Shown here one piece after another: positions 3,966 through 64,000 of a DNA stretch of 64,000 nucleotides. Within the stretch, counting starts at the first letter, position 1, and the number at the start of each line of letters is the position of its first letter. The notes beneath the pieces were generated by a model, which worked only from the letters and a program-made list of their open reading frames with translations, was not told the origin of the DNA and made no database searches. The position numbers and the translations under genes were made by a program. The stretch is from Nymphaea colorata. Taxonomy: Eukaryota; Streptophyta; Magnoliopsida; Nymphaeales; Nymphaeaceae. The stretch lies in NCBI RefSeq assembly GCF_008831285.2, contig NC_045144.1:15611858-15675857 (forward strand), read 5' to 3'.

Positions 3966-4977
3966 TCTGCTGATCTACTTTTTGCATACAAACACGAACA
4001 AAACAATTTCAACTGTCAAAATTGCTGCATCCGGTGCTTTCTTCTGCTGTTTCTCCAAGATTCTTGTATGAAACTAAGTACTCTTGTTGCACCAGTTTCT
4101 TCTGTTGGCCCAAGAACTCTGTCAGGAATACACAGTGTCTTTAAGCTGAACTAAGTGATCTCTGTTTGTGTGTGACTGAATAGGTTGATAAATATATGAC
4201 TGAAAGATGACGAGACCAAAAAGGCTATGAGTTTGAATATTCAACAAGAAATGTGAGAAGACCTCCTCGTCATATAAATGGCCAATCGTGTTCTTCTACA
4301 GGACAAGCAGCAGACATACATGTGAATCAAACTTACAGATGGAAGAACTAATGAGAAGGAATGGAAAGAGGAAGTACCATCATAAGAAAAATGGTCAATG
4401 TATTGAGCAAAGCATGTCCTGGACTGCTGAAAACAGACAAATTTTGCTTCCAAACACCAATTCAAGGAAGTTCAAAAGGTTCATGTACAGAAGAGAGAGA
4501 GAGGTGTGAATGCGGCCGATAAAGTGCTAGTTTGTCATTACTTTCAACTTTTGATACCAAAATGTCGGGCAGCCAATCATGGTTGCGACCTGCGATTGTC
4601 TATGCATGAAACTCGTGCATGTGGATCCTTTTAGAGAAAGTCAGATGTGGATTTCAAAGAAAGTCATCTGTGTTCTTACCAACGTGTGTAAGGAGACGTG
4701 GCACGAAGATGATGGCTTGAGATGTCAATCTCTCTTACCTACTTCACGACGCGGTTCATGTGAATCGTTGTTGCCTCCGGGACAGCTTTCGTTTAGGTGC
4801 TCACCTTTGACTATTCGTCTCCAAAAAGAGAAAAATGCTCATATGTTTTTCAGTTTTCTTAGTTTCTTAAAATATTTATTTAAAGGAAACTGTCTTTGGA
4901 GTAAAATCTCTATGAATAATACCCTTATACTTTTAATCTTTTAGGTTGCTTCGGAATTTAGGTGAACCTATACATAT
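3966..4977. other. Upstream region of the receptor-like kinase gene
   Basis: This should contain the promoter and 5' UTR of the minus-strand kinase gene. Chance open frames of 70-120 codons lie at 4241-4944 but show no family resemblance. No TATA box could be assigned with confidence. Confidence 0.35.
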
Positions 4978-5147
4978 TTTTATCTTTTGCCATCATATAT
5001 TTTTATCTTTTGCCATCATTTACATGTCAGAGGACCTTTTAAGTGTAAAAGAGGACCTTTTAAGTGTAAAAGTAACTATGAGATTTGAACTTTGAACCCT
5101 TTAAGTGTAAGTCACCTTACTGCCCAATTAGGCTATGATAAATTTCA
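4978..5147 (-). mobile_element. Possible tRNA-derived SINE
   Basis: Read on the minus strand, the head has an A-box-like TAGCCTAATTGG near 5131-5142 and a B-box-like AGTTCAAATCTC near 5082-5093, about 40 bp apart, as in Pol III promoters of tRNA-derived SINEs. The body holds two short tandem duplications: a 22-bp unit containing AGGACCTTTTAAGTGTAAAA near 5030-5073, and TTTTTATCTTTTGCCATCAT near 4978-5020. No target-site duplication was confirmed, so this stays a candidate. Confidence 0.35.
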
Positions 5148-5640
5148 AATATACATAAACCTCAAGGTACATTATATCATCTTGCAAGGTCCAAAGCTCT
5201 ATGGTTTTCAATACTGCTCTTTCAAGTAGAAAAATATATCTTTACTTTCTGAAAAAAATGTAATATTGTTATTCAATTCAGTTGATTTTTAACTAAAGAC
5301 TGGAACTTCATCTTGGATTCTTGATATGTTTTTTCCAGAAAACAGACTCTTTTTTCCCCTTCACATATTAGCCTCAATTTTGCTGACAGTGGCTAAGTTT
5401 ACTTCACTTCGTAAAATACGAAGCTTTTGTATGTTTCAGTATTATTCCTTTCAATTTGAGAAAAGTTCCTCACCTGCCATGCAAAAATTAAAGGCAACAC
5501 TTCACTTTAACTGATCATTTAATGATGGGCAGCAGATTACTAAAGTAAACTTGCATTCAACAGCTATTTGCCAAGTTGGGGTTTGAGCCACGAAAGTGAA
5601 ATTAATTTAAGGCCCTCATTGAAAATTATCACTAAAAAGA
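5148..5640. other. Intergenic, nothing recognised
   Basis: AT-rich sequence. The only open frame (5326-5514) has no family resemblance. Confidence 0.4.
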
Positions 5641-17280: not shown

Positions 17281-20200
17281 TCAGAACCTATGTTTAAGAG
17301 AGTGCCTGCGTTTTGGCCTCGGGACAATGACATCGAAGTCGCTCAATATCCACTCTGCTACTTCACCTTCTTCGCTCACATATATCTCTGTTCCAACATC
17401 AAGAGATGGCCATTCTCTTTTAGCTGGTGGAGTACCAGGGTCCTGCACAGAAACTAAATGTCAATAGTTGAGAAAAGGTTTTAATGGCAATGTTAAACTT
17501 GGTTACACTTTTGAGCTATGAATCAATAGGCAAGTAGGTCATTGTCAAGTTAAGCTGGTTGTCATCGAGGTCTTACAGCTTGAGGGGTAACTGGATTATA
17601 TTGGTACTGCATTTATCATGAATAATATTGTAACTATATTCATACACCATTCTGCTGGAATCAAAGTCAAGTTCTTGATTTTAGGAACTTGGTTATAAAT
17701 ATGAGGTTGCCCATATCAGGCTTTTTGCTCTCTGGTTGCATATGAACGACCTTGCAGGTTCAATGCTAAATGTCTCAATTTGCCTAAGGCCTCCGTCCAG
17801 AGAGCAAATTGTTATGTTACTATTATGTTTAGAGCTCGTTTGGTTTATTAGAGTCATAGGACTAAGTAAAATATTAGACAAATTAATGAAGATTGGGTTA
17901 TTCAAAATAACGGTCATCTGTTTGGCGGTCTGATGCCTGAACTGGATTAACTTATAGATACTTGGTTTAATTTCTTCATGATACTCCCTCTCAATGAAAC
18001 CATCAATAGGTAGTTTGAAGCTTTTGAACATGCTTGTACCTAGTTGTCTCAGTCTTGATGTTTATTGTTGAGTGTAATTAGCATGTTAAAATAATTAACT
18101 AAAGTTACAGACCAATCTACGACACTGTGTTGTGCAAATGTACTAGCTATCTAGCAATGGTTCTACATTTAGAGCATTCATGCTCTAATGTTTGCCTTAA
18201 ATTAGACCCTACTATAGCTGGCAGAGCAGAGCAATGTTAATGTTGAGAGGAAGAACACATGGCTTACCTGATAAAAGAACAAAGCCTGAGAGAGCCTGCC
18301 AACATCGAGTTCCCATGTTCTCGGATCACCGATCCAACCTTCACCTGGCTTTGTAGGATAGCCATAGTCACCCCATGCAGGATGTGGGAGGATCTGCACC
18401 AGCTCCTGTGGTTGAGGGTTGCTGTAGGCATCACACAAGTTGTACGGTTCCTCCAGATGTTCTGCATTTCCAGGAGAGCAGTACATGTGATAAGCGCCAT
18501 AGGGGAAGTTGGACGTGTCAGTTCTGTGTATTCTTGTGCCATTCGGGAGAGTGTGGTACGGCGGGCATGTATTAAGGTTAGTAGGAGAGCACCATGCTGT
18601 TGTATTTGGATTCAGTATCATCTCGCTGTAACGAGTAACATCAGTCGTTACGTCTCCATCACATGGCTGGCCGTTGTTCTTCCAACAGCTTCCAATGTCC
18701 ATGAGGTAGAATTGGCTCTTGGGTCCTCCACCTTGCTTGATATCTAAAGTCAGTCTCACTTTGAAGTCTGGTGATTTTGGGATCTGAAGATAATGAGGAA
18801 GAAATCAGCACAGACAAACGAGTAAAACGAATGAACGATCAAAATGCTGCTTTGTTAAGGATTACTTCTCTGCTGAATCTTAGGATTCAGCACAACTATG
18901 GAGGGGTCTAGTTCAGTAGAACGCTTGTCATGGGGTGCAAACCTCATATCTTGCAATGCATTGCGTCTCTGCATTTCATTAGTGGAATGTTCCTGGAGTT
19001 TAGAGGGCCTTCACCAGGGAAATTTGCAGTGTCACAAAGGCAAGGCACTGTGGGTTGAACAAGTATGCCAAATATCTCAGAGTGAGAATTTTTGTCGTTT
19101 CTAAGAAAGATGGCTGTCTTTATGCCGTTAGATTGATATTAGTAAAAAGAATAAAATCTTGGTTATGAACATGAAACTTTTAGGTAACTTAGGATTCTGG
19201 TAAAAGTAATAGGGCCACAACCATTACCATCTAATTAACTTGCTGTCAGATCATGATTGGGGGAAAAAGGGATGCTACTAAACCGGGATCAGATTTTCTT
19301 AAGGTAATCGCTATAAATACATATAAATTCAGTTTGAGATATCAGGTCCAGCCCCAGGTGCCATGGTCAATCTAATTCTTTGGTTTGCCTCAAAACTGTT
19401 TTCATGGTCACAGTAGTAACACATATTCTGAGAAAAATGAAAAGAAAGAAGACTTACAATCTTCGTCATGCCTCTTGTCTGATAATGGTACCCACCAGAG
19501 AGACCTTCATGTGCATCTGCCCTAAGGTACAGCATGAGCCATGGATACTTCTTGTTGGTCTTAAGAAAATGGTGAAATTTCCACCCGCCCTTGCCAAGCT
19601 GCTTCTCCCATGTAACTGAATAATATGAAAGTTTGGTAGTTGCCAGATCTTCATGAAGATGGCTTTCACCATCTAGGTCGTATGTCCCGTAGAAACTGCC
19701 ACTTAGTCTGTCACCCTTCAGGGTGGTGTAGTTGTGGTACATCAAAGGTTGGTTCATGCAGCCTGTGCCAAAGCAGGGGAACCTGCTCTCATGTGGAAAT
19801 GGCCCTACCTTGCGCCCATTTGAAGGACAGAGGCCTGCTAGAGTGTCCAAATTTCCATTCTTGAGCATGACCATCCAGAACTGCCATGGGCTTGGTCTGT
19901 CCCTAACCTGGCACTTTGCACCCAAGTACTGCTCCTTTTCCACTGCATAAAGGTCAGTGTTGTTGAGGGTGGTAGAGAAGCCCCCAGGGAAGGGATCCCC
20001 CACACTCAACCTGTTGTCAGCCTCATCCACTCTGTGAATCAAGAGATGTTCTCCCGTCTGGTTGCATGGTTCGCAGTGTTTCCAACCTAAATGTTGAGAC
20101 ATATAGCTTACATTATTTGAGCATATGCAGTGGCAGAGCCAATTTTTTTTTTGAAGGGGCACTCATTCACTGATTTCCATATCCGAATAGACATTCATAT

Positions 20201-23685: not shown

Positions 23686-24210
23686 AGTCTGAAGGAAACT
23701 CAGTTATAGATCAGAATATGTAGGATTTGGATGAAGAAAGCAGTTGTCTTGAGAAATTAATTCTGCCAAGAGGCAATCTCGAGTTCAAAGATTATTTTCC
23801 TTCCAATTGGTAGTACTCAGTCTGGGAGTTCAGCAGCAAAATCCTAGGCATCCATGGCCATTTTTGTAAAACAAAAAAACTTGAACAGCAAAAAGTCATG
23901 AAGATAACAAAATTTTTAATAAATATATTAAGCTGCCAAAGTTGCAGCCTTTCAGTAAAGAATTACATCGATCACTTGCCGGTAAATTCGCCTTCTGCAC
24001 TCAATCTCAGCCTCTTTGATACATGAGCGCCTGCTGTTGGTATTAATACACAAACTTTCCTTTACTTTCTCACTAATACAAAGAACATGTACTTGAAATT
24101 TAGAGAAAACGACACTTACAGCCGAAGGGTTCCCTCTCGCATCGAGACTCGAGACATCCTTCTCGTTTGCATGAAAGAATCGTTACGCAAAAAAAAAAAG
24201 GCAAACTGCA

Positions 24211-27200
24211 TCAGCTAGAACTTTTATGCAGTGCCACAAGTGATGCGTACAACCCATCTTTCATGCCAATGAGCACTTCATGTCTGCCCTTCTCTGCAAT
24301 CGCACCGTTCTGGACCACAGCAATCAAATCTGCACCTTGAATTGTTGAGAGACGATGTGCAATGACAATGGTAGATCTGTTCACCATAACTCTGTCCAGT
24401 GCATCCTGAACCACCCGTTCTGACTCTGCATCTAGAGCAGATGTGGCCTCATCAAGAAGAAGGATCTTTGGGTCCTTGATGATCGCCCTTGCGATGGCTA
24501 TCCTCTGCTTTTGTCCTCCAGATAACTGAACCCCGCGCTCGCCAACATTGGTATCATATCCTTCTGGCAGCCCTGAGATGAATTGATGTGCATTAGCTGC
24601 TTGTGCAGCAGCAATGATCTCCTTTTCAGTGACTGCCCCTTGCTTCCCGTATGCTATATTAGCGCGGATTGTGTCGTTAAACAATACAGGCTCCTGACTA
24701 ACTAACCCCATCTGCTGCCTCAACCATTTCAACTGAAACTTTTGAATTTCCACGCCGTCAAGCAATATGTGTCCTGAATCTGGATCGTAGAATCTCTCGA
24801 GCAGAGAGATAACTGTTGATTTCCCACTGCCACTCTCTCCTACTAGAGCAACAGTCTTTAAAAACAACTTCAAGTTAGGATATAATAGTGTGAGGTTACA
24901 AGCAGAGAAAATGCATGAGCACAGGTAAGGACATAAAGGATCAGATTGTGATAAATATATATTCAACCAGAGCATAGCTCCAACGTTGTTCATACCTTTC
25001 CTGAAGAAACAATAAGAGATAGGTCTCTGAATATCTGCACGTCTGGCCTAGTTGGGTATTTGAAACTGACATGTTGGAACTCTATATCGCCCTTCACACT
25101 AGGCAGCATGTCACCTGCTTCATTGCTTGGATCAATCTTTGATTTACGGTCAAGGATTGAAAAGATTGAGGCTGCAGCAGCCTTTGCTTTCGAAGAGTCT
25201 GGCGCTAAAGCACTTGTTTGTGAAACTCCAATTGCAGTCATTGTTAAAGCAAAGAAAACCTAAAAAAAAGTTGCAATGTCACTGTCTAGAAGAAGAAGGC
25301 ATAAATTAATGTGATGATGGCAACCATGTTGAATATTTCACGTACCCTAAATACTTTACCAAATGTTGTTTTTCCACTTTCTACAAGACGAGCACCGGCA
25401 TAAAAGCTCAGTGCATAGGAAGAAAAAAGAACAAAGAAAGAGAAACCAAATCCAAGACCACTAATGAGTCCTTGCCGAATTCCACTTTTCCTAGGCGCCT
25501 CACATTTTTTCTGGTAAAGATCCATCACCCGCTGTTCAGCACAAAAGGAAGCAACTGTTCGAATGCTACTGACAGCATCATTTGCTACTTGACTTGCTTC
25601 CTCATACATTGCCTACACACAACACAATACATCATCAGCAAATAAATTTCTGAGACACATAGCATAGAAGCATTTTAGTATCCTGAGTACAAAACCACTA
25701 AAACAAAAATGTAATTGTAAAATAAGAAACAAATAATCGATAATGTTATAACCGAGGACAACCTACCTTAGCATCTGCACTGAACCCTTTTAGAAACTTT
25801 ATCTGTGCAAAGCCTTGCAAACCAATCAAGGGAAGCAACGCCAAGATTATAAGTGACAGCTGCCAGTTGGCTACAAAAGCAATCACGACCCCGGAAATAA
25901 TAGTGGCAATGTTTTGTACTAACAAAGACAATGCATCACCAACAAGACTTCGCACTGTTGCAGCATCTGCTGACAATCTTGCCCCAATGGCCCCACTGAC
26001 AGAACAAAGAAGGAAAAAATTCATTTAAAGTTAAATAAAATTTTTTAAAATTTCACAAACAGATTTCTGGCAATCCACACACCTTGAGTTTTCAGCATCA
26101 TCGAACCAGCTGATTTCTTGGTGAATTACCCCCTCAAATGACATAGCCCGGATTCTTTTGATAAGTTGGGCACCAGCAACTCCAAAAAGATATGACTGTA
26201 TGGGTCCAACGAGAAAAGCAGTGACTCCTAGAACCAAATACATTAGAGCCCAGAAGTTTGCGTCCTTCCGAAGCTGGTGAGGTGGTTTAAAGAATGTCTT
26301 TATGATGCTTGAGATCAAGATACCAAACACTGGAAATATAACACCATTGATTGCTGCAGCAATGCAACCTAAGAATAAAACAGGAAGCTCTGGTTTATTC
26401 ATGTATGCCAGACGACGAACTGAGACCTTCTTGTCAGCCTTTGCAGAGGTATAATCACCATCTTCGACATCGTTGAGACTGAGGCCACTGTCATGAATGC
26501 CACTTATGCCAGGCAGGCCAAAGGATACTGAGAAAGAGTGTCTACTGCTCCGCCCAAGGGAAGAAGATCGTCCACTAATGGATCGGTTGAGCGAATATCG
26601 TTGACTACCAGATCTACTGGAAATCTTGTTAGACTCCAAATTCAATTCTGCATCAGGTTCAGTCATTCCCACTTGTTCACCCTGATTTATTTCTTGTAAA
26701 CGAATAAGCTGAGAGTATGGCCCTTCTGGATCTCTGATTAGCTCCACATGGGATCCTGTTTAGATGAAAGCAATTCAAAAGTTAGAAACCTTGAGTAACT
26801 CTTTGTCCAGGTTCATTTAATGTTACTAAATGCTTCATTCATGCCTTGCTCAACAATTTTGCCACGGTGCACAACAGCTATGAGATCAGCATTTCTTATG
26901 GTGCTCAAGCGATGGGCAATAACAATTGTGGTCCTCCCCACCATGATTCTGGTTAGAGCATCTTGCACTATACGTTCAGACTCTGCATCCAATGCACTTG
27001 TTGCTTCATCAAGTAAAAGAATCCGTGGATTCTTTAAGATTGCTCTAGCAATAGCTATTCTCTGCTTTTGTCCACCAGATAGTTGTGTACCATGTTCACC
27101 AACCATCGTGTCAAGGCCCTGCAAAATGGATAAGTTAATAGTCAATGACAAAAATTGAGATCATAGTATTTCCTAGAAAAAGGATATTAGATTAACAAAA

Positions 27201-30200
27201 TGCATCACCTGTGGCATCTTGTCTATGAATTTTGCAGCATTTGCAAGCTCAACAGCTGTCTTGATTTCCTCAAGTGTTGCACCAGCTTTTCCATATGCAA
27301 TATTTTCCTTTATAGATGTTGTAAATAAAACAGGCTCCTGACTAACAAGCCCAATTTTTTCTCTAATCCAACCAAGCTGAAGTTTCTTCAAGTTAACTCC
27401 ATCTATGAGCACTTCACCAGCTTGTGGATCGTAGAATCTCTCAACTAGACTAACAACTGTCGACTTTCCACTACCGCTTTCCCCAACTAGAGCTACAGTT
27501 GTGCCACAAGGCACATGCAGTGAAAAGTCAGAAAAGATTACGACTTCAGGCCTAGCTGGATAACTGAAATGTACATCTTTCAGTTCAATATCTCCTTTTA
27601 GGTCTTCTAGTACAATCCCACTCTTGTCATACGCATCTATCTCAGGTTTCCTATCAATTGTCTCAAACATCTTGTAAGCTGCTGCTCTTCCAGCTGCAAA
27701 TGCACTCACAGATGGTGAAGCCTGACCAAGGGACCTGTTTTAGGAAACCAAATGTACACCATTAATAAAGGAAAACATACTTTATAAAATAATTCCTATT
27801 GATATCAATGTGCTATGTAAAAACTACTTACATTCCTCCGGTCATAACAGCAATCATTACAGTGATCACCTGTCCACCTGTGTATCCTTTGTCAACTATG
27901 AGCTTTGAACCATACCACAAAGCCAATGCATAACTGGCAAAAATGATTAAGAACACTGCTCCAATTCCTACGCCTGCAGCTAGTCCTTGTTTAACAGTAG
28001 CTAGATATGCAGCTTTTAGTGCCCTATTATATTTTGTTATAGCTTCCTTTTCTCCAGTAAATGATGCAACCTGTGTATGTTGGATAGCCAAATTAATTTC
28101 CATTGGCTACTAGAAAGTTGGTTTTGGGGAAAATAAACCCAAACTAACAGTAGGAAAGATAAATGGTAAATATGTAACTGAAAATTCTTCTAAAAGCAAT
28201 TTCAAGGATAATCAGAAGATTCAGAACTCCAATCTGTGATTCATGGAGAGACCCATTTTAACCTGCTGATTGAGAAAGAACAAAAGGCATGCAACTTCAT
28301 AATGTGTATGGATAGAGAGGAAACTGCATACCGTTCTAATCGATCCAACTGTTTGTTCAACTACAATGCCAGCTTCAGCATAAGCAGCTTGCCCACGGGT
28401 TGAAAGCCTAGATATAGTTATGGACATCGCACCCCCAGCAATGACTATTAGAGGAATTGATGCTAACATAACAAGAGTAAGGAGCCATCCTTTGCTAAAT
28501 GCGATAACAAAGCCACCAAAGAATGTTGACACAAGCTGTACGAACTTTCCAACCTAATCAATACCAAGTTATAGCTTTAGTAGAATGTAATGAGGGACCA
28601 ATTACAGGATTTCTTGCAAGAGTTTACATTTACATTTCATAAACTTCAGAATGTCAAGAATAGAAGACAAACAATGTTTTGATCATGAGTTCATCGACTT
28701 GAAGTCTTAAACCAGTTGGTTATCATTATTGAAAAAACAACTTTAGTTTTTAAAATATCAGAAGTAACAAAGGATAGCAATCACAATCATAAAATCCAGA
28801 CCAAACCTCAACCTCACATTTAACAATTTGAAGGAGTCCTGAAGTCTTTACTTTTTTCTCATTCAATTTTTTCCTTGTGCTTAAACAACACAAAATAAAA
28901 GAAACAGCAAGAACATATAAACTAACTTTCCCTTTCCTTTTTCTTATTGGGCAGGCTGGGTTAGGCAGATCCCTACCAGATTTATGCAGACAGGTGTGCT
29001 TCCTGGATATTGTAATTTTGACCACCTTCAGTTAAAGGACTCAACAAACCTCCCAGCCGGGTGAACAGAATTTTTTTGTTGCCAAATAAATCCACAATCT
29101 TGAAACCAATAAAGACAGCACAAAAGAATGATGAACAATGTCAAGCATAAATACCATGACAGCACAAACTGCTTTAAAAGCCTGCCTTTTTTTATCCTTT
29201 TTGCCATTCTGATCACATTTGTCTAAGTACTAGTTTCATAAGCTTAGTTAGTTGTTGAACTAAATCCAATACTGCATGTCCATTACCAGATTGTTCATGA
29301 CATGTCATGACTAATAAAATTTGTTCACCAGTCATAGTTCTCTATATGAAGAAATAGAACAGCTAGTTTCCTGAAGTCGTTTAGAGAATTTTATAAATCA
29401 AGGAGAAGAAATGAAGAAACCAGCAATAGCAATCTCTTTCATATCACTCTATAATAAAAAGGATTATTCCCAAAGGTGAGTACATTTTCATATGGCCGAC
29501 ACATTTTTGGGCATCTCTGGCTTCAGAACATAACAAAGATACAGAAGTTCACCATCAAGTTCAGTTTAAAAAGGAAATGTATAGCTGACAAACTCTCGAT
29601 GCATTTTTCAATGTAGTACCATCAAGGCATCAACCATGCAGAGAATAAATCAGCAAAGTCACCCACAGTGTTATTCTTGAAAAGGCATTGCAAATCATTA
29701 TTTTAAACCGAAGATATGGAAAGCAACTAACCTTCTCCCCCATTGCATCCTGGATGAGGATGGTATCACCTGCCATTCTGCCAATAACTTCTCCTGTGTT
29801 CGTCTCCAGATCAAAAAATGCAACGTCCTGTCTAAGAATGTTACTGAGATACAAACCCCTGATACGAGCAGCCTGCCTTTCTCCAGTAGTCATCCAACAC
29901 GTGACCTCTGTGAATTACAGCAAAAAGATGAAAAAGAAAAAAAAGAAGGAAAAGTACAGCGACTAAATGTAGATACAGATTTGATCAAACAGAGGATTTA
30001 TATAGATGAAGGAGATCTATGACCATGAAACTGAACGGATTACTGCACCAATGAAACATAAGAAAGGAATTTCACTCACGTAGAAATGATACTACTGCGG
30101 CTCCAACAGCCAAATACACAAACTTAAGTGCCACCTGAAAAAAAGAAAAGAAAAGGAGGCAGCACCGATGAATATCCCCGAAACTGAAAAAACAGCTAAA

Positions 30201-37915: not shown

Positions 37916-38121
37916 CAGGGGCGGAGGGAAGGGGGGGGGGGGGCGCCTAGGCCTTGGCCCCACCCTAACAAATGAAAAAAATAAATTTTACATTAAAAAA
38001 AAATATAATTTTTTAAGTGCACAATGTATTTTTTAGAGTTGAATTCAATTTGGCCCTACCCAAATCCAGAAGTTGGACTGTCGGCCCGTCCCTAAGGAAA
38101 ATCCTGGCTCCGCTCCTAGCG
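37916..38121. mobile_element. MITE with CAGGGGCGGAG ends
   Basis: The left end is CAGGGGCGGAGGGAAG and the right end is CCTGGCTCCGCTCCTA. Internal words TGGCCCTACCCAAATCC and TAAGTGCACAATGTATTTTT are shared, in inverse orientation, with 39191-39406. A 12-bp G run follows the left end. No clean target-site duplication. Confidence 0.5.
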
Positions 38122-39190: not shown

Positions 39191-39406
39191 CAGGGGCGGA
39201 GCCAGAATTTTTCTTAGGAGCGGACCAACAGTTTAACCTTTGGAAGGGCGGGCCAACAGTCTAACCTTTGGATTTGGGTAGGACCAAATTAAATTCAACT
39301 TTAAAAAATATATTACGCATTTAAAAAATTATATTTTTTTTAATATATATATATTTTTTTCATTTGTCGGGTGGGCCATAACCTAGGCGCCATCCCTCCG
39401 CCCCTA
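39191..39406. mobile_element. MITE with CAGGGGCGGAGCCAG ends and an 8-bp target-site duplication
   Basis: The element runs from CAGGGGCGGAGCCAG to CTCCGCCCCTA (216 bp). The flanks are CACCCAAG (39183-39190) and CACTCAAG (39407-39414), matching at 7 of 8 positions. The 8-bp length points to the hAT superfamily. The interior is AT-rich and non-coding. It is the best-preserved member of a family also seen at 8535, 37916 and 47923. Confidence 0.65.
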
Positions 39407-39419
39407 CACTCAAGTGATA

Positions 39420-43527: not shown

Positions 43528-46432
43528 TTAACTGAGAGCTGCAGTTCGGCTGGAACTCTTATGGAGTGCCATAAGTGATGCATACAACTCATTTTTCATG
43601 CCAGTGAGCTCTTCATGGCTCCATTCCTCTGCAATCACACCATTCTTAATCACTGCAATCAAATCTCCACCTTGAATTGTCGAAAGACGGTGAGCAATCA
43701 CAATGGTAGACCTGTTCACTGTTACTTTGTCCGGTGCTTCCTGAACTACATGTTCTGACTCTGCATCTAGAGCAGAGGTGGCCTCATCAAGTAAAAGGAT
43801 CTTTGGGTCCTTAATAATCGTCCCCGCCATGGCTATCCTCTGGTTTTGTCCTCCAGATAGTTGAACTCCTCGCTCGCCAACACTAGTATCATATCCTTGT
43901 GGTAGACTGGAGATGGAGCCATGTGCATCATCTGCTTGTGCTGCTGCAATGATCTCTTCATCAGTGACTGCTCCTTGCTGGCAACATTAGCACGGATTGT
44001 TATATTGAATAACACAGGCTCTTGATTAATATTAGCTTGGCTAATATGGCCAAGCTGTAAGCTATTCATACCTTTCCAGAAGAGACAGTAAGTGAGAGGT
44101 CACTGAATATCTGCACTTCTTGCCTAGATGGATATTTAAAACTGACATGCTGAAACACTATAGTACCCTTTACATTAGGAAGTGTTTCACCTGTTTCGTT
44201 GCTTGCATCTTGATTTTTGGTCAAGGATTGAAAAAGCTGAAGCTGCAGCAATCTGTGCTTTAGTTGCATCTGGTGCCAAAGCACTTGTTTGTGAAACTCT
44301 ATATGCTGTCAATGTTAAAGCAAAGAAAACCTATAGAAGAAGCTATAGTATCATCGTCTAGAATAAAACCATAATGTGTAAGAGAACAGTAATTAGTATT
44401 TTTTGCTCATACCCTAAAAACTTCTATGACTGAGGACTGCCTACTTTCTAAGATGCACTGGCATAAAATCAGGCAGCATAGGTAGAAAAATAAAAACAGA
44501 GACATAAACCAAATCCAAGACCACCAATGGTGGCTTGCCAAATTCCATGCTTCCTAGGTGCTTCACAATTTTTCTTATAAAGATCCATCACCCTTTTCTC
44601 AGAGCAAAAAGAAGCAACAATGCGGATGCTACTAACAGCATCATTTGCTACTTGACTTGCTTCCTCATACACCACCTAGAATAGCCAACACATGTACATT
44701 TGTTAAGAAACCAATTTCATAAAGTATAGTTGGTTTCAGATCCTAAGCACTAGCTTGATCAAATAAGACAAAAGCATAATAAACCAATAACCAAATGGCA
44801 CTGTCTATTATGTCACCCCAAATAACGATTAACCTTGGCATCTGCAGTGAACCCTTTCAGAAACTTCATCTGTGCAAAAGTATGCAGAGCAAAGGAAGCA
44901 ATGCCATAATTATGAGAGATAATTGCCAATTGGCTATGAATGCAATCAAGGGTCCTGCAATAATAGTTGAAATATTTTGCACTAGTAAAGACTTTGCACT
45001 TTTGCTGCATCTGATGACAATCTTGCACCAATGTCCACTGACAAGGAAAAAAGAAAAAAAAATGAATTACATGAAAAGTAAAGGTACTTTTGAGAGCATC
45101 ATATGGGATATATTTCATATTTATATGTGTACCTAGAGTTTTCAGAATCATCAAGCCAGCTAATTTCTTGGTGAATTATCCTCTCAAAAGACATGGTTTG
45201 AAATCTTTTGACAAGTTGGGCACCAGCAACTCCAGGAAAACATGTCTGTGCAGGTGAAACAAGAAAAGAAACACTTCCTATAACCACATATATAAGGGAC
45301 CAGAAATTGGCACTCTTTTGGAGTTGGTCTAGTGGTTGAAAGAATGCAGTTACGAAGATGGACATCAAGAAACCAATGGTTGGGAACATGACACCATGAA
45401 TTGCAGCAGCAATACAGCCCAGCATCAAAATAGGAAGCTCTGGCTTATTCAGGTATGCTAGACGGCATAGTGTGGCCTTCTTGTTGTCCTTCTTAGAGGA
45501 TTGACACCACTGTCATTAACATCGACCATCCCATGCACTCCCAAGGATGCTAAGAAAGAGCTGCCACTGCTGTGATCAAATGAAGAAGATTCTCTGCTGA
45601 TGTGAGAAGACATGGTTGGCTCTTAGCTTCAATTGAGATCTTGTCAGATTTCTAATTAGGGTGAATTGGTACGAAACTGTATGCAATTATGGATTCTTTG
45701 ATGAGTTGAATCCATAATTGCCCATAATATAAAATGGTAGTAGTTCTTGGGGTCGTGTGAACGGTTGCCTGCAACGTTGGTTTCTAGGATTATCTCTTCC
45801 CCATTTGAGAGAGACCTCACATGCGCCGCACAGACCCTGGAAGATCCTACTGCGATCTATCGTCCATGCAGTTCAGATGGATTCAAGTATACTTCTGCTT
45901 CAGTTAAAGTTTTGTTTCAATGATTTAGCACGAACACGATCTTGTTTAGAGCATATTGTTTTTGTATATGCATGAAGATTTTCTTAAAATACATCAAAAT
46001 TTGAGCAATTATTTCTAAACATGTGAACATGCAACCTTCTCCCCCATAGCATCGTGGATGAGAATGGTGTCTCCTGACATTCTGCCAATCACTTCTCCTG
46101 TGTTTGTCTCCATATCGAAAAATGTAATGTGCTGTCTAAGAATGTTACTGAGATACAACCCCCTGATACGAGCGGCTTGCCTTTCTCCTGTAATTGTCCA
46201 ACAAGCGACCTCTGCAAATTCCAAAGAGATGAAGAAGCAGTAAAAGCTTAGATGCCAAAGGTAAAAGCAATCCACACTAAGCAAAACCCACAAAATGAAT
46301 TGCTGAGTCCTGAAAAATATAAGTGCCAATTATATCAAAACAAAGAAACTGTTCTAAAGAAAGGATAATTTGCTCACGTAAAAAGGCTGGGACCATGGAA
46401 CCGATAGGCAGATATACACATTTTAGAGCAAC
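43528..46432 (-). pseudogene. ABCB transporter pseudogene with internal deletions
   Basis: Collinear with the intact ABCB gene on the same strand. Equivalents of exon 2 (46378-46432), exon 3 (46036-46213), exon 8 (about 45133-45640), exon 9 (about 44836-45050), exon 10 (about 44417-44676), exon 11 (about 44070-44331) and exon 12 (43528-44040) are recognisable. Exons 4-7, meaning the rest of TMD1 and all of NBD1, are missing between 45.65 and 46.0 kb, and exon 1 is not seen. The start of exon 12, including Walker A of NBD2, is also deleted: sequence passes from the exon 11 donor at 44069 almost directly to QEPVLF. Frameshifts lie near 43980 and 44215, with further breaks in exons 9 and 10. The signature LSGGQ and Walker B survive. 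It cannot encode a working transporter. Confidence 0.9.
45684..45720. repeat. 13-bp perfect inverted repeat at the pseudogene deletion
   Basis: CAATTATGGATTC (45684-45696) and its complement (45708-45720) flank an 11-base loop. The hairpin lies between the exon 8-like and exon 3-like parts, where four exons were lost. Confidence 0.6.
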
Positions 46433-48052: not shown

Positions 48053-48284
48053 TTCTACAGTTGTTGTTGTTGGGTTTTGTGTTCTCTTATATATTGTGGT
48101 CATTGGGTTCTGCTGCTATCATTGAGTGAGTGAATGATGACTCTAGCTATCTGAGTCACCCAACAATGCTTGAGCGAAAAAAAAAAAATTATATGTATAT
48201 AGGCTAATATTGAATGGCAAAACTACCAACCACTTTTTTCTTATTGTTTTTTTCTTAACCATCTATCATAATAGATCTAGTTAA

Positions 48285-49885
48285 ATGGTTGAGCGAGTGA
48301 AGGTGATCGCAATAGAAAGAAATAGAGATGAGGCTAAGCACAATTTTTGCTTCCGTACTTCATGCGGAACGGCGTCTACCTCGTCTCCCCTTCTCCTCTT
48401 TTCACTGTTTTTTATATTTGAGATTCATGGAAAAATATCAAAACACCCCAACTTACGCTGCAACGACTATCCTAGGTGCTAGGGTTTTTCTTTCCCTCTT
48501 CCTTTTTCCCACTGTTTTCCCATTTTTTCACCGTTTGGTTAGAAACTTTTTCTGGTTTTGTTTTTCTCACTTGGTTGAGGTTAGGAGAGGATGGGGTCCA
48601 ACGGATGCATGGCAACAGATCTGCGGACGACAGCTGACGGTGGCACGATGTGAGCGGACCCCACTCATTCTGACTGAGCTGTCCAAGAAAAGTCAAAAGT
48701 CAAAAGCCATAGGAAACCAAAACCGGGTTGGGTCCGCGCGCCAAGGTCCAGGTTCCATTGGGCTCGAAGCAACGCCAAGGGATTTTATTTTAATTGTATG
48801 TACGCTTTACCATTCGATTTGTTAGACGTTTGTATGTTCGAATTTAAATTATTTGGCATCCACTTCTTAATTCACAATTAATTGGTCATCCCAATCAACA
48901 TAGAATTTAAGAACCAACTTTCAAAATACATGCACATTAACAAAATTTATTATGTTTATTATATGATCTGAAAACCATGTTTGAATTAGGAACTCATCGT
49001 ATATAGTTTTCAAAATTGATTCTTTTGCATATCTGACTTGTTTAGAGAAATGTGGTCAGATATCTAATTTGAATCTGATTTATTGACATCTCCTACTTTT
49101 GCTTTTCAAAAATTTGAGAATTTCTCTAAACAAGTCAGATATGCAAAAGAATCAGTTTTGAAAACTATATACGATGAGTTCCTAATTCAAATATGGTTTT
49201 CAGATCATATAATAAACATCGTAAATTTTGTTAATGTGCATGTATTTTGAAAGTTGGTTCTTAAATTCTATGTTGATTGGGATGACCAATTAATTGTGAA
49301 TTAAGAAGTGGATGCCAAATAATTTAAATTCGAACATACATCTAACAAATCGAACGGTAAAGCGTACATACAATTAAAATAAAATCCCTTGGCGTTGCTT
49401 CGAGCCCAATGGAACCTGGACCTTGGCTCGCGGATCCAACCCGGTTTTGGTTTCTGATGGCCTTTGACTTTTGACTTTTCTTGGACAGCTCAGTCAGATG
49501 GAGTGGGGTCCGCTCACATCGTGCGACCGTCAGCTGTCGTCCGCAGATCTGTTGCCATGCATCCGTTGGACCCCATCCTCTCCTAACCTCAACCAAGTGG
49601 GAAAAACAAAACCAGAAAAAGTTTCTAACCAAACGGTGAAAAAAGGAAAAACGGTGGGAAAAAGGAAGAGGGAAAGAAAAACCCTAGCACCTAGGATAGT
49701 CGTTGCAGCGTAAGTTAGGGTGTTTTGATATTTTTCCCTGAATCTCAAATATAAAAACAGTGAAAACAGGAGAAGGGGAGACGAAGTCGTTCTGCATCAA
49801 ATACGGAAGCAAAAATTGTGCTTAGCCTCATCTCTATCTCTTTCTATTGCGTTCACTTTCACTTGCTCCCTTGCTCGGTAGAATC
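48285..49885. repeat. Near-perfect 1.6-kb palindrome: arms of about 765 bp, loop of about 70 bp
   Basis: The left arm (48285-49050) and right arm (49121-49885) are inverted copies with few substitutions. Checked anchor pairs give centres of 49083.5 and 49085.5, so arms are almost free of indels. Both arms carry the same open frame in opposite orientation (165 and 96 codons), which is therefore an arm artefact. The outer ends (about 230 bp) match the foldback family at 50.0-51.1 and 61.7-64.0 kb; the inner parts do not, and the loop resembles the hAT-like repeat at 6075. If transcribed, the RNA would fold into a very long hairpin, a natural substrate for Dicer-like enzymes. Confidence 0.9.
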
Positions 49886-50036
49886 TCTCTGCCAATTTTT
49901 TTTTGCAGCAAAAACCCTAAGTTCCTATTTCCTACCATTGGATGGAGAAGAGAAACAAATATTTGAATCGGAATGAATTTGAATACGAATCCACAACCAA
50001 GCACAAGAACTCTGGAAACATATGGACAGATAACCA

Positions 50037-51058
50037 AGTCTCCATCAAAACCCCTACAAAATCAAGCATCTAGATACAAATCCACAAAAATTCAGAACCT
50101 AGAGTTGATGCCATAAACAAAGCACAATTATTCAAGATATCTGCAACTTTGCTAAGCAGCAAAAACACCAAAGGAGAAAAAGATCCAACCGACTCCTCCC
50201 TCCTGTCTCCTTTTCACTTTTCTCATCATGCAATTTATCCGAAACATTCGACTCTCGCCCCAATCCAATGGCGGGAAATCGGAACTTAGGGTTTTAGCTA
50301 CAAAAGTCGGAGAAAATTTGATAGGGATCTTACTGAAATAGAAAAAGCACGAAAGCAATCGAGACATAAAGAGAGAGATATGAGGCTAACCACAATTCTT
50401 GCCTCCGTATTTGATGTGCAGCAACATTTCTGTTGCCTTCTCTTCCCTCATTTTCACTCTTTTTATATTTCTGATGAAGTATGAAATACGAAAACACCAT
50501 CAAATTTTTGCTTCAATGACAACATGTTGTACAAGCTGCAGGCCGTTAAAGAGTGTAGACACTTAACCTCAACAATCGACATGATGGTCGTTGCAGCATA
50601 AGTTTTGGGGTGTTTTCTTATTTTTAACTAAATTTGAAACATAAAAAAAAACGAAAAGAAGAAAAGAGAATACGACCGTTCTGCGTCAAATACGGAAGCA
50701 AGAATTGTGCTTGGTCTCATCTCTCTCTCTTTCTCTAGCGATCGCTTTCGCTCGCTTCCTCGCTCGACAGAATCTCTCTGTCAATTTTTCTCATAATTCT
50801 GCAGCAAAAACCTTAAGTTCCGATTTCCCGCCATTGGTTTGGGAAGAGCATCGAATCATAAAGCAAAGAGAGTTTGATAAATTGCAGGAAAGGAAAGGGA
50901 GAGGAGACTGGAGGGATGAATCAGATGGATCTTTGTGCTGCTCCGGCAATACAAATCTCCTGATCGGCTGTGTGTTGATCCTAACTTCGTCACTAGGTAC
51001 TGCATTTTCGTGGATTTGTTTCCAGATGCTTGATTTTGCAATGATTTCAACAGTGGTG
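50037..51058. repeat. Foldback element of about 1.0 kb, second family member
   Basis: The left arm (about 50037-50527) and right arm (about 50578-51058) are diverged inverted copies around a loop of about 50 bp. Matching anchors include TCAAGCATCTAGATACAAA at 50062 with its complement-like partner near 51016-51033, and CACAATTCTTGCCTCCGTAT with AATACGGAAGCAAGAATTGT. Read outward, each arm has CT-rich tracts, an AAACCCTAAGTTCC-like motif and then a donor-like GGTACT, as in a plant leader with a first intron. The junction to the neighbouring palindrome (49.9-50.0 kb) matches the junctions of the array at 61.7-64 kb. Confidence 0.8.
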
Positions 51059-51059
51059 T

Positions 51060-52220
51060 ATTTAACTGTGCAGATGTTTTTGGAGTTCCCATGCTTGATT
51101 GCAGTTTCGTTGGTTTTTTGTGTTCCTCTGGGTAGGTTGTTGTTTCCTTGCCTAGTTTGTAGAGATCAAATGTTTCCTCTATTTTAGCACCCGTCTTTAC
51201 TACTCACTTTCATTGCCTTTGTGGATTTAGGTGTGCATATGGTAAGATGGAGCAGTCAGAGATTGTTATGGGTTGGCAAAGAGAGTAGGTGGTTGCAATT
51301 GCCGGTGGCCAAGGAGAGCAGCCGACCAGAGTGGGAGGAAAAAGAGAAAAAGGGTAGTGTTGGAAATAGTCATTAGCTGCATCAACAACTTTTACTGACA
51401 CACAAACAAAAACAATAGAATTTTGACCAAACCATTACTGCAGAGAAACTGCACCTCATTTGATGTAAAGAGTTGATCATTCATGAAAGTGCTGTTGCCA
51501 ACAACACTGTTTACTGTTGTTGCAGGAAAACATGAGAAATGAGGTCAGAGCAGTGCAATGTTATTACTGATATGCTCAACTGAGTATCAGAAATGACCAA
51601 TTATTATTGAAATAGAACCAACGGCATCAATAAAGACACTGACTTTGCTGACATCCCAAGAAAAATGTCAATATATGATGTTGTTGTTATTTGATCACAT
51701 GTTTGGTGCATCAGAGAATATTTTAGTGCAAGGCAAACTCATTTGCTAATGTAGATGGTTTGAAATGTATAACTGATGAAATATTAAAAAAAAAAACAAT
51801 TAAATAATTAAATAAACAAAAGCAACAACTTAAACAAAATTAGTATAAGAATGATTAAAAAGAATATTGCGAGTAGCATGGCACCTAGCCCGAAAACCTT
51901 ACTAACAGGTGATTTTTGGCGATACAAGAAAATTTTCACAAGAGAAAGCCCCATGTATTTAAGCATGTAATTGAGACCATAAAAGTAAAAAGAAATTAGC
52001 TTATAGACAAAATAGTTCAAAAATGGATTACTCAGAAAAGGCAAGCAAAAGAAAAGGCACACATCCTTGTTGTCGACAACCAAAAGATACAACAACTGTA
52101 GTGCGGATAAGAGAATGACCACATTTCAATGACCATGACTGTACACCAGTGCTAAGGCATGAACATGAGAATGCATAAGTGAAGAGTGTCTCTGGAAAGA
52201 GATAATGTGTGGTAGCATCT
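51060..52220. other. Intergenic, nothing recognised
   Basis: AT-rich sequence with small open frames of no known family. Confidence 0.4.
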
Positions 52221-52310
52221 TTTTCCCAATGTTGGTCAATAATACCATGGAAGGCTGGTAGCATTTTTTCCCAATGTTGGTCACTAATACCATGGAAGGC
52301 TAGCAGTAGA
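52215..52310. repeat. Two-copy tandem repeat, about 47-bp period
   Basis: TTTTTCCCAATGTTGGTCA then ATACCATGGAAGGCT occur twice in succession with minor differences. The repeat abuts the ankyrin-like fragment. Confidence 0.8.
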
Positions 52311-52500
52311 GGATATCTTTTGCAAATTCAAGATTGCCAAAGATAGCATTGATATGCAAACAAGAATTTGAACTAGAGTTTGTTACTCGATAGTTTTCCT
52401 CAAGCAACTTCTTCAAATCCACCAAGTATCTACCTATGGCTGCCTCACAAAGTCTGGAATCCATCCCTCCTTTCTTTTTACTCATGATCTCTAAGCAATG
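52309..52500 (-). pseudogene. Ankyrin-repeat protein fragment (ACD6/ITN1-like N-terminal part)
   Basis: The minus-strand translation contains LCEAAIGRYLVDLKKLLEE followed by SCLHINAIFGNLEFAKDIL. This fits the start of plant ankyrin-TM proteins (an EAA-D-L-LLEE helix pair, then a T-LHIAA-GHLEFAK-IL repeat). The usual TxLH repeat core is altered (SCLHINA), the frame stops just after IL, and no transmembrane part follows. Looks like a decayed fragment; only one repeat is visible. Confidence 0.45.
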
Positions 52501-52599
52501 AACGAATGGAAGCAAGCTAGAAATATATAGTGAGAGACAATGCATAGGGTATGCCTAGGCATCACATTTACATCCATTATTTCTATGATTTGCTAATTA

Positions 52600-53645
52600 A
52601 TTCATAGATTCAAAAATTTTTCACAAAAGTGGAAAGGTATCCTACTAGCTATCATAAGTTTCCTTCTTTTTCATTTTCAAATCTGCACCATCCTTTTTCT
52701 TTGGAATGCCCTTTCTATCTTTGACCTTTTCATATAATGAATGGTTTTATTGTGATATTTGGATTTTTTTTAGCTCATTGGAAAGATATGACATCTTTTC
52801 TCCTTGTCAAGGATGAATGTTAGGATCTGTAAAATAAGATTTTTGCATCTACATCTACTGTTAACTTCTATGGTAGCATGAACTTTAACATGCTCTCCCA
52901 AATCAAGCCAAGACATCCATGATAAGTTCATTAGCTAAAAGATTATGGTAGCCTCTATATTGAAAAGAACATTTGTATATGTTATTTCTACAAGTTGGTA
53001 GCAGATTTGCAAAATGTGTAGAATTTTTACAAAAATGGAAAGTGCTTCTAGTAGCTCTATTGCTACCACTTGTTTCATTCTTTTTTGGTCGTCAATCTAC
53101 ACCTTCCTTTTCCAGCAGAATGACTTTTTATCCTTGGCATTCATATTACAATACTTAGTTACCATCCTTAAAATTTTGTACCTTATTGAAAAAAATATAA
53201 TATATTTTTTTCTTATCGAGGATGAATACTGTGAGTGGTCATAACAAGATTTCTGCAACCAACTTATCCACCATTATATTCAATAGCAGTATGACCTCTC
53301 ACATGCTCCCTCAAATCAACCTTGGGACATACATTATAAAGGCTATATCATGAATTTATCACTTAAATATGACAGTAGTGGTACATAGTGCAAAACAAGT
53401 AAATCCATCATTTCTGATATTTGAAAATGAATTTCAAACTTGGAGAATTTCACAAGTGGAAAGAACATTTGCTCTCTAACAGTTATCATCAGCTTCCTTC
53501 TTTTTCACCATGAAATGTGCACTTTTTTTCTAAAAAATGACCTTTATGTCCTTGATTTTCATATTATGAAAGGTTTTGTTATCACATTCAGAAATTTATT
53601 TAGATTGTTGAAATGATATAATATTTTCCCACTTCTGAGCTGTCT
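52600..53645. repeat. Three diverged tandem copies, period about 405-420 bp
   Basis: Segments starting near 52600, 53005 and 53425 share, in the same order: a GTGGAAAG-like word, TTCCTTCTTTTTCA-like tracts, a CTTTTTCTNNNGAATGNC-like word and CATATTANNAATG-like words. The first two also share GAGGATGAAT-like and CACATGCTCCCTCAAATCAA-like words. Heavily diverged, no coding content seen. Confidence 0.45.
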
Positions 53646-55070: not shown

Positions 55071-55383
55071 CATCTTCCTTCACGAAGGAGGAAGGGGAAA
55101 GAAGGAAACCCTCCATGCCAAAATGCCCGCCGGTGGAAGGCATGCCGTTGCCAGCAGCGCGTACGCTGGGGAGGAAGGGGGCGTCGTCACGTCAAGATTC
55201 CGAAAGCAACACTGGACCCCTTGGGGGAAGTGATGAAGGGGAGAGACTTTGGCTTTCACTCGGGTGGGGGAAGCTCTTCCAAAACTGTAATGTATAAGAA
55301 ATAATTTTTGAGGCAAATGAGTGATTATTTTTAATGTTTTCTAATCATAATCCATGCTTGCTTTTGTGTAATATGAAGGATTT

Positions 55384-55651
55384 GACTTTTTCCATTGATT
55401 TCTACAACTTGAACCAATTAAAAAAAAAAAAAACTTGAATAAGGTGTTGAACTCCAGAGTTGTCTACATTCTTGGCTGGCCTTTCACCTTTAGCACCAAG
55501 TAGGGCTGCACACGATTGACTTTTTCCATTGATTTCTACAACTTGAACCAATTAAAAAAAAAAAAAACTTGAATAAGGTGTTGAACTCTAGAGTTGTCTA
55601 CATTCTTGGCTGGCCTTTCACCTTTAGCACCAAGTAGGGCTGCACACGAGC
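55384..55651. repeat. Two-copy tandem repeat, 134-bp period
   Basis: Copies at 55384-55517 and 55518-55651 differ at very few positions, so the duplication is recent. Each copy ends with TAGGGCTGCACACGA, the terminus of a hAT-like element that continues only after the second copy. Confidence 0.95.
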
Positions 55652-60560: not shown

Positions 60561-60689
60561 TAAGAGAGATTACAATGGGAATCGGCCCTGCTCCCCTTTG
60601 CCGGAAGGCCTGTGCTCATCACCGGGCTGTAATGGCAAAGGAGAAATCAACTTGTGCACTGTAGCAGGTGAAGCTTCAACAATGAATAC

Positions 60690-61005
60690 TTCATGCCTCC
60701 CCTTCTTTGCAAACACGCCATTCTTAACAATTGTAGTCAAGCCTGCAGCTTGAATTGTTGAGAGAAAACGAGTGATCATAATGGCAGATCTGTTCACAAT
60801 TACTTTGTCCAATGTTTCCAGAGCCACATGTTCTGATTCAGCACCAGAGCAGAAGTGGCCTCAACAAGCAGAAGAATCTTTGGTTTCTTGATGATTGCCC
60901 TTGTAATGTCCATCCGCTGCTTTTGTCCTCCATATCATTGAATTTCTTGCAGTATAGAGACAAAGCCATGCACATTAGCTGCTTATGATGCTGCAATTTT
61001 TTGTC
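60690..61005 (-). pseudogene. ABCB NBD2 remnant
   Basis: The minus-strand translation in pieces resembles the exon 12 region: AANVHGF, then [20 protein letters not shown] (signature end), then [10 protein letters not shown] (Walker B with the catalytic Asp-Glu pair reduced to Val-Glu), then [20 protein letters not shown] (H-loop region, with the histidine lost) and KKGRHEVFI. Stops and a frameshift interrupt it, and Walker A is absent. It is closer to NBD2 of the intact gene than to NBD1. It ends about 0.65 kb before the foldback array. Confidence 0.8.
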
Positions 61006-61009
61006 TGCC

Positions 61010-61665
61010 TCAAAAGTTAATCCAAAACCCAGATTTAAGCATTGGGAAAATCAGAAACCCCCATGAAAATTTGATTTATCATGTGCAACAGTGATTTCAA
61101 AGCAGACGTATAAAAAAATTTTGTCGGCTTTGATTCTTTTTGTACTCGAATAGTTTTAAAATTGGTTTAGAAGAATTTGAAACAAGATTTAGCAAAGAAA
61201 GCTTTGAAATCGATTGGATTTTCATTAAAATTGCTGGATGTGTTCTTCCTCTTTTCTGGTGGCAATTCATGAGTTTTGATGCAAAATGTGGGTTTTCGAC
61301 TTGATTAAATTGGGAACATTTTCTTGACGACATTTTTGCATTAGATTTGGAATGTTTTTGGATCAATAATCGATAGAAAACCGCAACGATCGGCTAGATT
61401 TTGGGGCAAAACTAAACCCTGTTACTGTCATTTAATACTGGGCATCGGATCGGGACACACTGGCCTAAGGCTTAACAAAGTTGGGCACAGCTTTTTTAAG
61501 ATGAATGCACCATGAAAAAGTTCTCATGGCATGATAGCCAATACTTAATTTCTTCTGTTCGCTTAAAGAATGTATCACCTAGTTAAATTTTGTTATTATC
61601 TCATATTTAGATAGGGTTGTTATACGCCAAAAAAACAACAACCAACCCAAAGGAACATAAAAAAA
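61010..61665. other. Intergenic, nothing recognised
   Basis: A short GGGCATCGGATCGGGAC word near 61440 resembles the hAT-like word repeats. No gene was recognised. Confidence 0.35.
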
Positions 61666-61667
61666 CC

Positions 61668-64000
61668 TCATGAAACCACAACCAAGCATGAGAATGCTAG
61701 AAACGTATGGACAATTAACCACGTCTCCATCGAAATCCTTATAAAATCAAGCATCTAGATACAAATCTACGAAAATCCAATACCAGGAGATGACATTGGG
61801 AAGAAAGCATAGTCGACCAAGAGATCCGCAATTTTTCCAAGCTGCAAAAACAGCAAACGAGAATGAAGATCCAAGCGACTCCTCCCCCTTGTCTCCTTTA
61901 TCCTTTACTATCGTGAAATTTTTCCGAAACATTCAACTCTCGCCCCAATCTAACGGCAGGAAGTCGGAACTTAGGGTTTTAGCTGCAGAAGTCAGAGAAA
62001 ACTTGACAGAGAGACCATACGAAGCAAGGAAAAGTGTGAAAGCATTCACGAGAGCAAGAGAGAGAGAGATCTGAGGCTTAGCACAATTCTTGCCTCCGTA
62101 TTTGATGCGCAACAACATTTGCGTCGTCTTCACTTCCCTCCCTTTCACTCTTTTTTATATTTCAGATTAAGTCTGAAATACGAAAACACTCTAAAAATTT
62201 TTCGTTCAATGAACAACATGTTGTAGAAGCCAAGCCGCAAGCGAATAAAAATTAAAGAAACTTGACCTCAACAGCTTTGTTCTAATGGCCGAGGAAATGA
62301 TGGTCGTTGCAGCATAAGTTTTGGTGTGTTTTCATATTTTTCCCTGAATATGAAATATAAAAAACAGCGAAAACAGGAGAAAGGGAGACGACGTAGACGC
62401 CGTTCCTCATCAAATACGGAAGCAAGAATTGTGCTTAGCTTCATGTCTATCTCTTTCTCTTGCGATCGCTTTCACTCGCTTCCTTGCTCAGTAGATTCTC
62501 TCTATCAATTTTTTTTGTAACTTTTACGGCAAGAACTCTATGTTCCTATTCCTTGCCATTGGATGGAGAAGAGAATTGAATATTTGAATCCGAATGAATT
62601 CAAATACGAAGCCACAATCCAGCACAAGAACTCCATAAACATATGGACAATAACCAGATTTCCATAAAAATTCCTGTAAAACTGAGCATCAGGATAAAAA
62701 TATGCGAAAATTCAGTACTTGGAGCTGATGCCGGAAACAAGGCACAATTGATCAAGAGATCTGCAATTTTGCCAAGCTGCAAAAACAGCAAAGGAGAACG
62801 AAGATCCAAGCGACTCCTCCCTCCTGTCTCCTTCTCCCTTTACTTATCGTGCAATTTTTCTGAAACATTCGACTCTCACCCCAATCCAATGGCAGGAAAT
62901 CAGAACTGAGGGTTTTAGCTGCAAAAGTTAGAGAAAACTTGACAGAGAGACCTTATCGAGCAAGGAAGCACGTGAAAGCATTCGCGAGAGAAAGAGAGAG
63001 AGAGATCTGAGTGTTAGCACAATTCTTGCCTCCGTATTTGATGCGCAACGACATTTGCGTCGTCTTCACTTCCCTCCCTTTCACTCTTTTTTATATTTCA
63101 GATTAAGTCTGACATACGAAAACACTCTAAAAACTTTCCGTTCAATGACCAACATGTTGTAGAAGCCAAGCCGCAAGCGAATAAAAATTAAAGAAACTTG
63201 ACCTCAACAGTTTTGTTCTAATGGCTAAGGAAATGATGGTCATTGCAGCATAAGTTTTGGGGTGTTTTCATATTTTTCCCTGAATCTGAAATATAAAAAA
63301 CAGCGAAAACGGGAGAAAGGGAGACGACGTAGACGCCGTTCCGCATCAAATACGGAAGCAAGAATTGTGCTTAGCTTCATGTCTCTCTCTTTCTCTTGCG
63401 ATCGCTTTCGCTCGCTTCCTTGCTCGGCAGATTCTCTCTGTCAATTTTTTTTTAACTTTTGCAGCAAGAACCCTAAGTTCCTATTCCTTGCCATTGGATG
63501 GAGAAGAGAATCGAATATTTGAATCCGAATGAATTCAAATACGAAGCCACAATCCAACACAAAAACTCTGTAAACATATGGACAATTAACTGGATCTCCA
63601 TCAAAATTCCTTTAAAATGTAGCATCTAGATACAAATCCGCGAAAATTCAATACCTGGAGCTGACGCCGGAAAAAAGGCACAGTTGATCAAGAGATCTGC
63701 AATTTTGGCGAGCTGCAAAAACAACAAACAAGAACAAAGATCCAAGTGACTCCTCCCTCCTGTCTCCTTTTCCCTTTACTTATCGTGCAATTTTTCTGAA
63801 ACATTCAACTCTCGCCCGAATCCAATGGCAGGAAATCGGAACTTAGGATTTTAGCTGCAGAAGTCAGAGAAAACTTGACAGAGAGACCTTACCGAGCAAG
63901 GAAGCGCGTGAAAGCATTCGTGAGAGCAAGAGAGATCTGAGGCTTAGCACAATTCTTGCCTCCGTATTTGATGCGCAACGACATTTGCGTCGTCTTCACT
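61668..64000. repeat. Tandem array of foldback units, period 930-936 bp, running off the window
   Basis: At least two complete units and part of a third. Anchors recur at constant spacing: TGCCTCCGTA at 62091, 63027 and 63957; TATGGACAA-type at 61706, 62642 and 63577; ATGGTCGTTGCAGCATAAG-type at 62301 and 63236. Within each unit, a left arm (about 61.69-62.19 kb in unit 1) and a right arm (about 62.30-62.57 kb) are inverted copies around a loop of about 110 bp. Read outward, both arms show CT-rich tracts and an AAACCCTAA-like motif. Open frames inside are arm artefacts. The same family makes up 48.28-51.06 kb. Confidence 0.9.

Follow-up and report, generated by a model that had tools for sequence, protein, structure and literature searches.

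The palindrome on C7 is, with a probability of roughly 70%, a composite inverted duplication that arose when errors of DNA repair or replication combined the 5′ ends of two host genes unrelated to each other. By sequence comparison, each arm contains, over its inner ~580 bp, a diverged copy of the putative promoter and leader of a PP2C gene (gene B), joined to the leader of another gene, a P4-ATPase gene (gene A). Coordinates are those of the window, by which we mean the whole 64,000-nt stretch analysed (C7:15611858-15675857), and genome searches were run against its own assembly (407.8 Mb in 783 contigs).

The inverted duplication that the initial annotation placed at 48285..49885 is real in the assembled sequence, with a left arm of 761 nt (48291-49051) and a right arm of 749 nt (49120-49868) on either side of a 68-nt loop. 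Global alignment of the arms yields 722 identical and 27 mismatched pairs (722/749, 96.4%) with 12 gap columns in 4 indel events, and a blastn comparison of the palindrome with itself, loop included, gives 92.6% identity over 1596 columns. The earlier description of the arms as near-perfect is a little strong, since the arms differ at 16 of 574 pairs in the inner part and at 11 of 175 in the outer part. The inner part is thus slightly more alike (Fisher p 0.037), while the spread of mismatches along the arms is not clearly uneven (KS p 0.11). Transitions make up 17 of the 27 mismatches, and just 4 of these 17 fall at CpG-type sites. The length of the arms excludes a chance origin. Among 19 sequences (198,118 bases), a partly overlapping set chosen for matches to the locus and hence no random sample, the palindrome at 48291-49868 is the longest inverted repeat of more than 90% identity. 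Of the inverted repeats in the window whose arms span 150 columns or more and lie less than 1.5 kb from each other, only one falls outside the gene A family, a pair of ~195-bp arms at 37924-38118 and 39215-39411 (202 columns, 80.7% alike, separated by ~1.1 kb) that may be a TIR element.

Table 1. Features of the palindrome and of the neighbouring gene A arrays, in window coordinates. 'A' denotes positions in the C10 parent stretch of gene A (L012).
Feature	Position	Strand	Remarks
Left arm, outer part	48291..48471	-	Inverted copy of P4-ATPase (gene A) 5′ region, A 3636->3479
Left arm, inner part	48473..49051	-	Putative PP2C (gene B) promoter/leader copy, points left; homology ends at 48473
Short dispersed repeat	49020..49098	.	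Spans inner arm edge and loop; at least 9 further matches in the genome
Loop, 68 nt	49052..49119	.	C1 promoter homology solely as left-arm continuation
Right arm, inner part	49120..49693	+	Putative PP2C promoter/leader copy, points right; homology ends at 49693
Gene A 5′ region, direct copy	49695..49953	+	A 3479-3773; first 174 nt (to 49868) form the right arm's outer part
Gene A 5′ region, inverted copy	50042..50527	-	A 3991->3475
Gene A 5′ region, direct copy	50578..51153	+	A 3474-4092; reaches the common end of the captured segment
Second gene A array	61628..64000	.	Inverted and direct 5′ copies alternate, period ~936 bp; continues beyond the window to C7:15677539

To trace the inner part of the arms, the left inner arm together with the loop (48472-49119) was used as a query against the genome. 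At least 18 matches were returned: 2 to the palindrome itself, 2 on C1, 5 shorter ones on C5 and 9 to a dispersed ~75-bp repeat. Among the matches listed, a lengthy match elsewhere occurs at a single place, C1:30970305-30970855, which accounts for both C1 matches. The left inner arm aligns to this place (4306-4856 of the C1 stretch, L009) in pieces at 86% and 84% identity and the right inner arm (L009 4346-4856) in pieces at 87% and 86%, with exact homology edges at the outer limit of each inner arm. The matching C1 stretch adjoins, on the 5′ side, a leader exon that contains a start codon and whose end, judged by eye, resembles a splice donor. On the same strand, the first frame with a PP2C domain is found at L009 9019, 4.2 kb downstream of the match (PF00481, E 2.2e-8 and 3.1e-8 in two scans), and a later frame has a strong PP2C match (E 2.8e-49). 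A Pfam scan of the leader frame itself gave no match; strand and order suggest that this exon is part of the PP2C gene. Each arm differs from C1 in 52 of 488 columns, one ambiguous site counted (~11% substitutions), with 44 differences common to both arms and 7 changes private to each. Both arms contain a ~90-bp piece (48803-48892 and its partner) that the C1 place lacks, and the true donor may have been a sister of the C1 gene rather than the C1 gene itself.

These results overturn the earlier suggestion that the inner parts are extra flanking DNA caught in the inversion, because the genome search puts them at the C1 promoter. Two further candidates for this region were rejected. A transposon of 1.2 kb ending at 48473 and 49693 does not fit, since the C1 and C5 sequence continues from these points into the gene's leader, which makes each of them a junction, and no target-site duplication of 8-11 bp was found. 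A coding gene in the left arm was discarded as well, its 169-aa open frame matching Pfam below threshold only (DUF4505, E 0.021).

The outer part of the arms has a different source. As initially proposed, only the outer ends match the neighbouring 'foldback family': positions 48292-48471 match two units of the 62-63 kb array at 86.8% and 87.4% identity, and the inner part lies outside the family. The family itself proved to consist of arrays of copies of a P4-ATPase gene 5′ region. Its parent is found at one place, C10:21359444-21360110, 5′ of an open frame that carries PF16209 (E 1.9e-23) and PF00122 (E 7.8e-10) and has a phospholipid-transporting ATPase as its best PDB match (E 9.8e-94). The left outer arm is 78% identical to this parent, compared with 87% for the two array units. 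With the C10 parent stretch as query, at least 22 matches were obtained, 1 being the parent, 20 on C7 and 1 a short match on C5. Within the arrays, inverted and direct copies alternate with promoter facing promoter (A 3475 versus A 3445-3474), and four array ends terminate at A 4089-4111. ATPase coding exons were not found downstream of the C7 arrays, translated matches being confined to the 5′ region. The stretch that follows the array beside the palindrome (51218-52959) is shared, at 85% identity, with two more places on C7 (L013 1866-3576 and L014 6813-8518); in this 1.7-kb stretch, which follows each of three C7 gene A arrays, no coding sequence was recognised.

Elsewhere in the window, minus-strand tandem stretches related to ABCB-type transporter genes (ABC_tran, ABC_membrane) lie at 24206-29945, 43528-46246 and 60680-60950, the one at 60.7 kb being a mere ~265-bp piece. 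An open frame on the minus strand at 18202-18804 has a strong DUF7705 match (E 7.6e-109), and two adjoining copies of a 134-bp unit at 55382-55649 are 99% identical, as expected of a very recent tandem duplication. A scan for tRNA genes in the window led to the rejection of that candidate, and a known structured RNA family was ruled out by 0 Rfam matches at gathering score over the whole window.

The relationship between the arms was examined in a tree that covers 20 gene A stretches rather than every copy. The two arm parts are sisters (100/98) placed among the direct copies, and the 8 inverted copies included form a separate clade (99/98). The left arm is therefore a duplicate of the same fused piece that makes up the right arm, and not the array's old inverted ATPase partner, a candidate that its direct-type position in the tree rules out. 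The loop complicates the polarity of this event. Aligned to the C1 promoter as a continuation of the left arm, it scores 56, compared with a maximum of 31 in 500 shuffles; as a continuation of the right arm it scores 21, below the shuffle maximum of 30, and shows no homology. Since the loop continues the left arm in this way and the array continues the right arm, which of the two arms is the copy stays ambiguous, and the mismatch between loop and array needs either homology-driven re-joining to the array, an asymmetric deletion at the centre, or loss of a left array.

As to timing, the inner divergence between the arms (16/574) is about a quarter of that between an arm and C1 (52/488), so that, if rates were equal, capture of the PP2C piece came before the inverted duplication or the last conversion between the arms. 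The 44 differences from C1 that the arms share, set against the 16 of 574 between them, likewise indicate that capture preceded the separation of the arms or their last homogenisation. The initial annotation's view that the duplication is recent, or kept alike by gene conversion, thus holds relative to the surrounding repeats, with the two alternatives not separable here.

Taken together, these observations are compatible with a three-step origin. The P4-ATPase promoter and leader, whose homology to the C7 copies is observed, would have been copied to C7, forming a head-to-head inverted pair that was then amplified into the arrays, in a direction and order that we infer. A ~0.55-kb piece of the PP2C promoter and leader (C1) would then have been joined, in the same orientation, to one of the direct ATPase copies at its start; the junction is visible, and its route is conjectural. 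Finally, the fused piece would have been duplicated in inverse orientation. The duplication is evident, and its mechanism may have been either fold-back template switching with the array re-joined by homology, or formation of a full palindrome followed by a partial, one-sided loss of the centre that left the 68-nt loop.

The C7 palindrome is not the only structure to contain this PP2C region. At two places on C5, 115 kb apart, the gene B 5′ region (B 4691-5184) is present as inverted copies that are flanked by inverted copies of a third 5′ region (gene C), and the C5 gene B piece overlaps the C7 piece at B 4691-4856. Among the matches listed, the sole other relative of gene C is at C11:1734902-1735532, 6 of its 7 matches being on C5, and the C11 stretch includes an open frame that has a start codon. 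If this C11 frame is the gene, the order on C5 would be C′ B′ B C with promoters central, parallel to A′ B′ B A on C7. The arrangement is head-to-head at 4 of 4 levels, a bare count that carries no chance expectation. The C5 structure is less clean than that on C7, its B and C pieces being kept apart by mutually non-matching stretches. In the shared piece (5 of 6 aligned rows), 6 sites unite C5 with C7, 6 unite C1 with C5 and 3 unite C1 with C7, counts that would favour neither a common nor a separate capture of the PP2C piece on C5 and C7. A 286-bp direct duplication, 100% identical, occupies the middle of the nested C5 structure (L011 3123-3694) and is either very recent or an assembly effect. 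A further inverted repeat lies 4.6 kb from the nested structure (L032 429-2292, C5:6480428-6482291; arms ~360 bp, 90.6%, spacer 1150) and could be a TIR transposon.

Among other explanations, a natural trans-silencing locus fares best and is still unlikely. In such a case the palindrome would be transcribed through and diced to 21-24-nt siRNAs that methylate or repress the C1 PP2C promoter, as Smi does with SP11. The inner 1211 nt do fold into one long stem of -1022.5 kcal/mol, a value that stands without a shuffled reference at that length. Moreover, the C1 promoter and 5′ stretch has exact matches to palindrome 24-mers at 96 positions, covering 234 of its 951 bp, and such matches are also present at 41 and 56 positions of two C5 stretches and at 4 positions in one other C7 array. 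Against this, both captured promoter pieces point outward from the loop, so that their own transcription would not make a hairpin and read-through from the flank would be required. In addition, the arms have diverged from the C1 promoter by ~11%, no exact 24-mer match was found in the C10 ATPase parent stretch or in the 61.6-kb array, and the low share of CpG-type transitions between the arms gives no sign of strong methylation-driven decay. Should outside transcription cross the loop, a long hairpin RNA would be expected, and siRNAs matching the PP2C promoter could follow.

There is a natural precedent: Smi and Smi2, inverted repeats at the Brassicaceae S locus that silence SP11, are described as acting through sRNAs that methylate the SP11 promoter (PMC8268441), and an account of Arabidopsis S-locus precursors describes repression outside canonical silencing pathways (PMC13128112). 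The C7 palindrome resembles Smi and Smi2 (PMC8268441) in being an inverted repeat similar to the promoter of another gene with exact matches of siRNA length. It differs from them in that it is known from sequence alone, in that the matching gene is an unlinked PP2C, and in its chimeric ~0.75-kb arms with outward-pointing promoter pieces. Our search of the literature on natural promoter inverted repeats found few direct precedents, which is not a claim of absence from print.

Also improbable is a non-autonomous DNA transposon, either a Pack-MULE or a foldback element, whose long TIRs would be the arms and whose cargo would be captured gene pieces. Pack-MULEs typically carry gene fragments enclosed by long inverted repeats, and MULEs that have several long TIRs and tandem repeat ends are described (PMC3310237); the palindrome does carry host gene fragments with long inverted repeats, and the same PP2C region recurs inside the nested inverted structure on C5. 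However, here the arms are the gene fragments themselves and take their boundaries from host genes, and the right arm passes into the local array with no element end. A target-site duplication of 8-11 bp (at most 1 mismatch) was found neither at the ends of the palindrome nor at those of its inner part, the flanks of the 61.6-kb array have no exact 8-mer in common, and 48230-48300 and 51140-51240 share no 7-mer. Nor were dispersed copies with the same ends seen: among the matches listed there is no second full-length palindromic copy of the inner part, and 20 of 22 gene A matches are on C7. As it has neither TIR ends on both sides with a 9-11-bp target-site duplication nor such dispersed copies, we do not class the palindrome as a Pack-MULE.

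A broader proposal is that this genome, that of an early-diverging flowering plant, repeatedly builds nested head-to-head duplications of 5′ ends with the PP2C promoter central and another gene outside (P4-ATPase on C7, gene C on C5), and that these act as hairpin siRNA sources silencing PP2C in trans from several chromosomes; we consider such a convergent, dispersed system highly unlikely. Palindromes are a known type of assembly artefact, and the least credible explanation is that one arm is collapsed or chimeric from fold-back reads: rather than being identical bar sequencing noise, the assembled arms differ at 27 sites and by 4 indels, which would make a simple fold-back artefact unlikely, the loop has its C1 homology on one side only, and each arm has its private changes relative to C1.

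The composite inverted duplication most likely persists as a palindrome that is not under selection and diverges slowly, its two promoter fragments pointing outward; a selected function is possible but unsupported by the sequence. That the same PP2C promoter region turns up again in a second nested inverted structure is the odd feature of these findings, one that a specialist would want explained. Inverted duplications of gene fragments are a proposed route to new plant siRNA or miRNA genes, and PAI, Muk and YUP have reportedly been put forward as young miRNA or siRNA genes of this kind. The C7 palindrome is like them in being an inverted duplication of part of a gene that would be able to target that gene, and unlike them in that the piece is mainly promoter and leader, not coding, and is fused to the leader of a second gene. 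In this case the likely donor, the fusion partner and the inverted copy are all locatable within a single genome, the arms are distinguishable, and the donor promoter retains siRNA-length matches.
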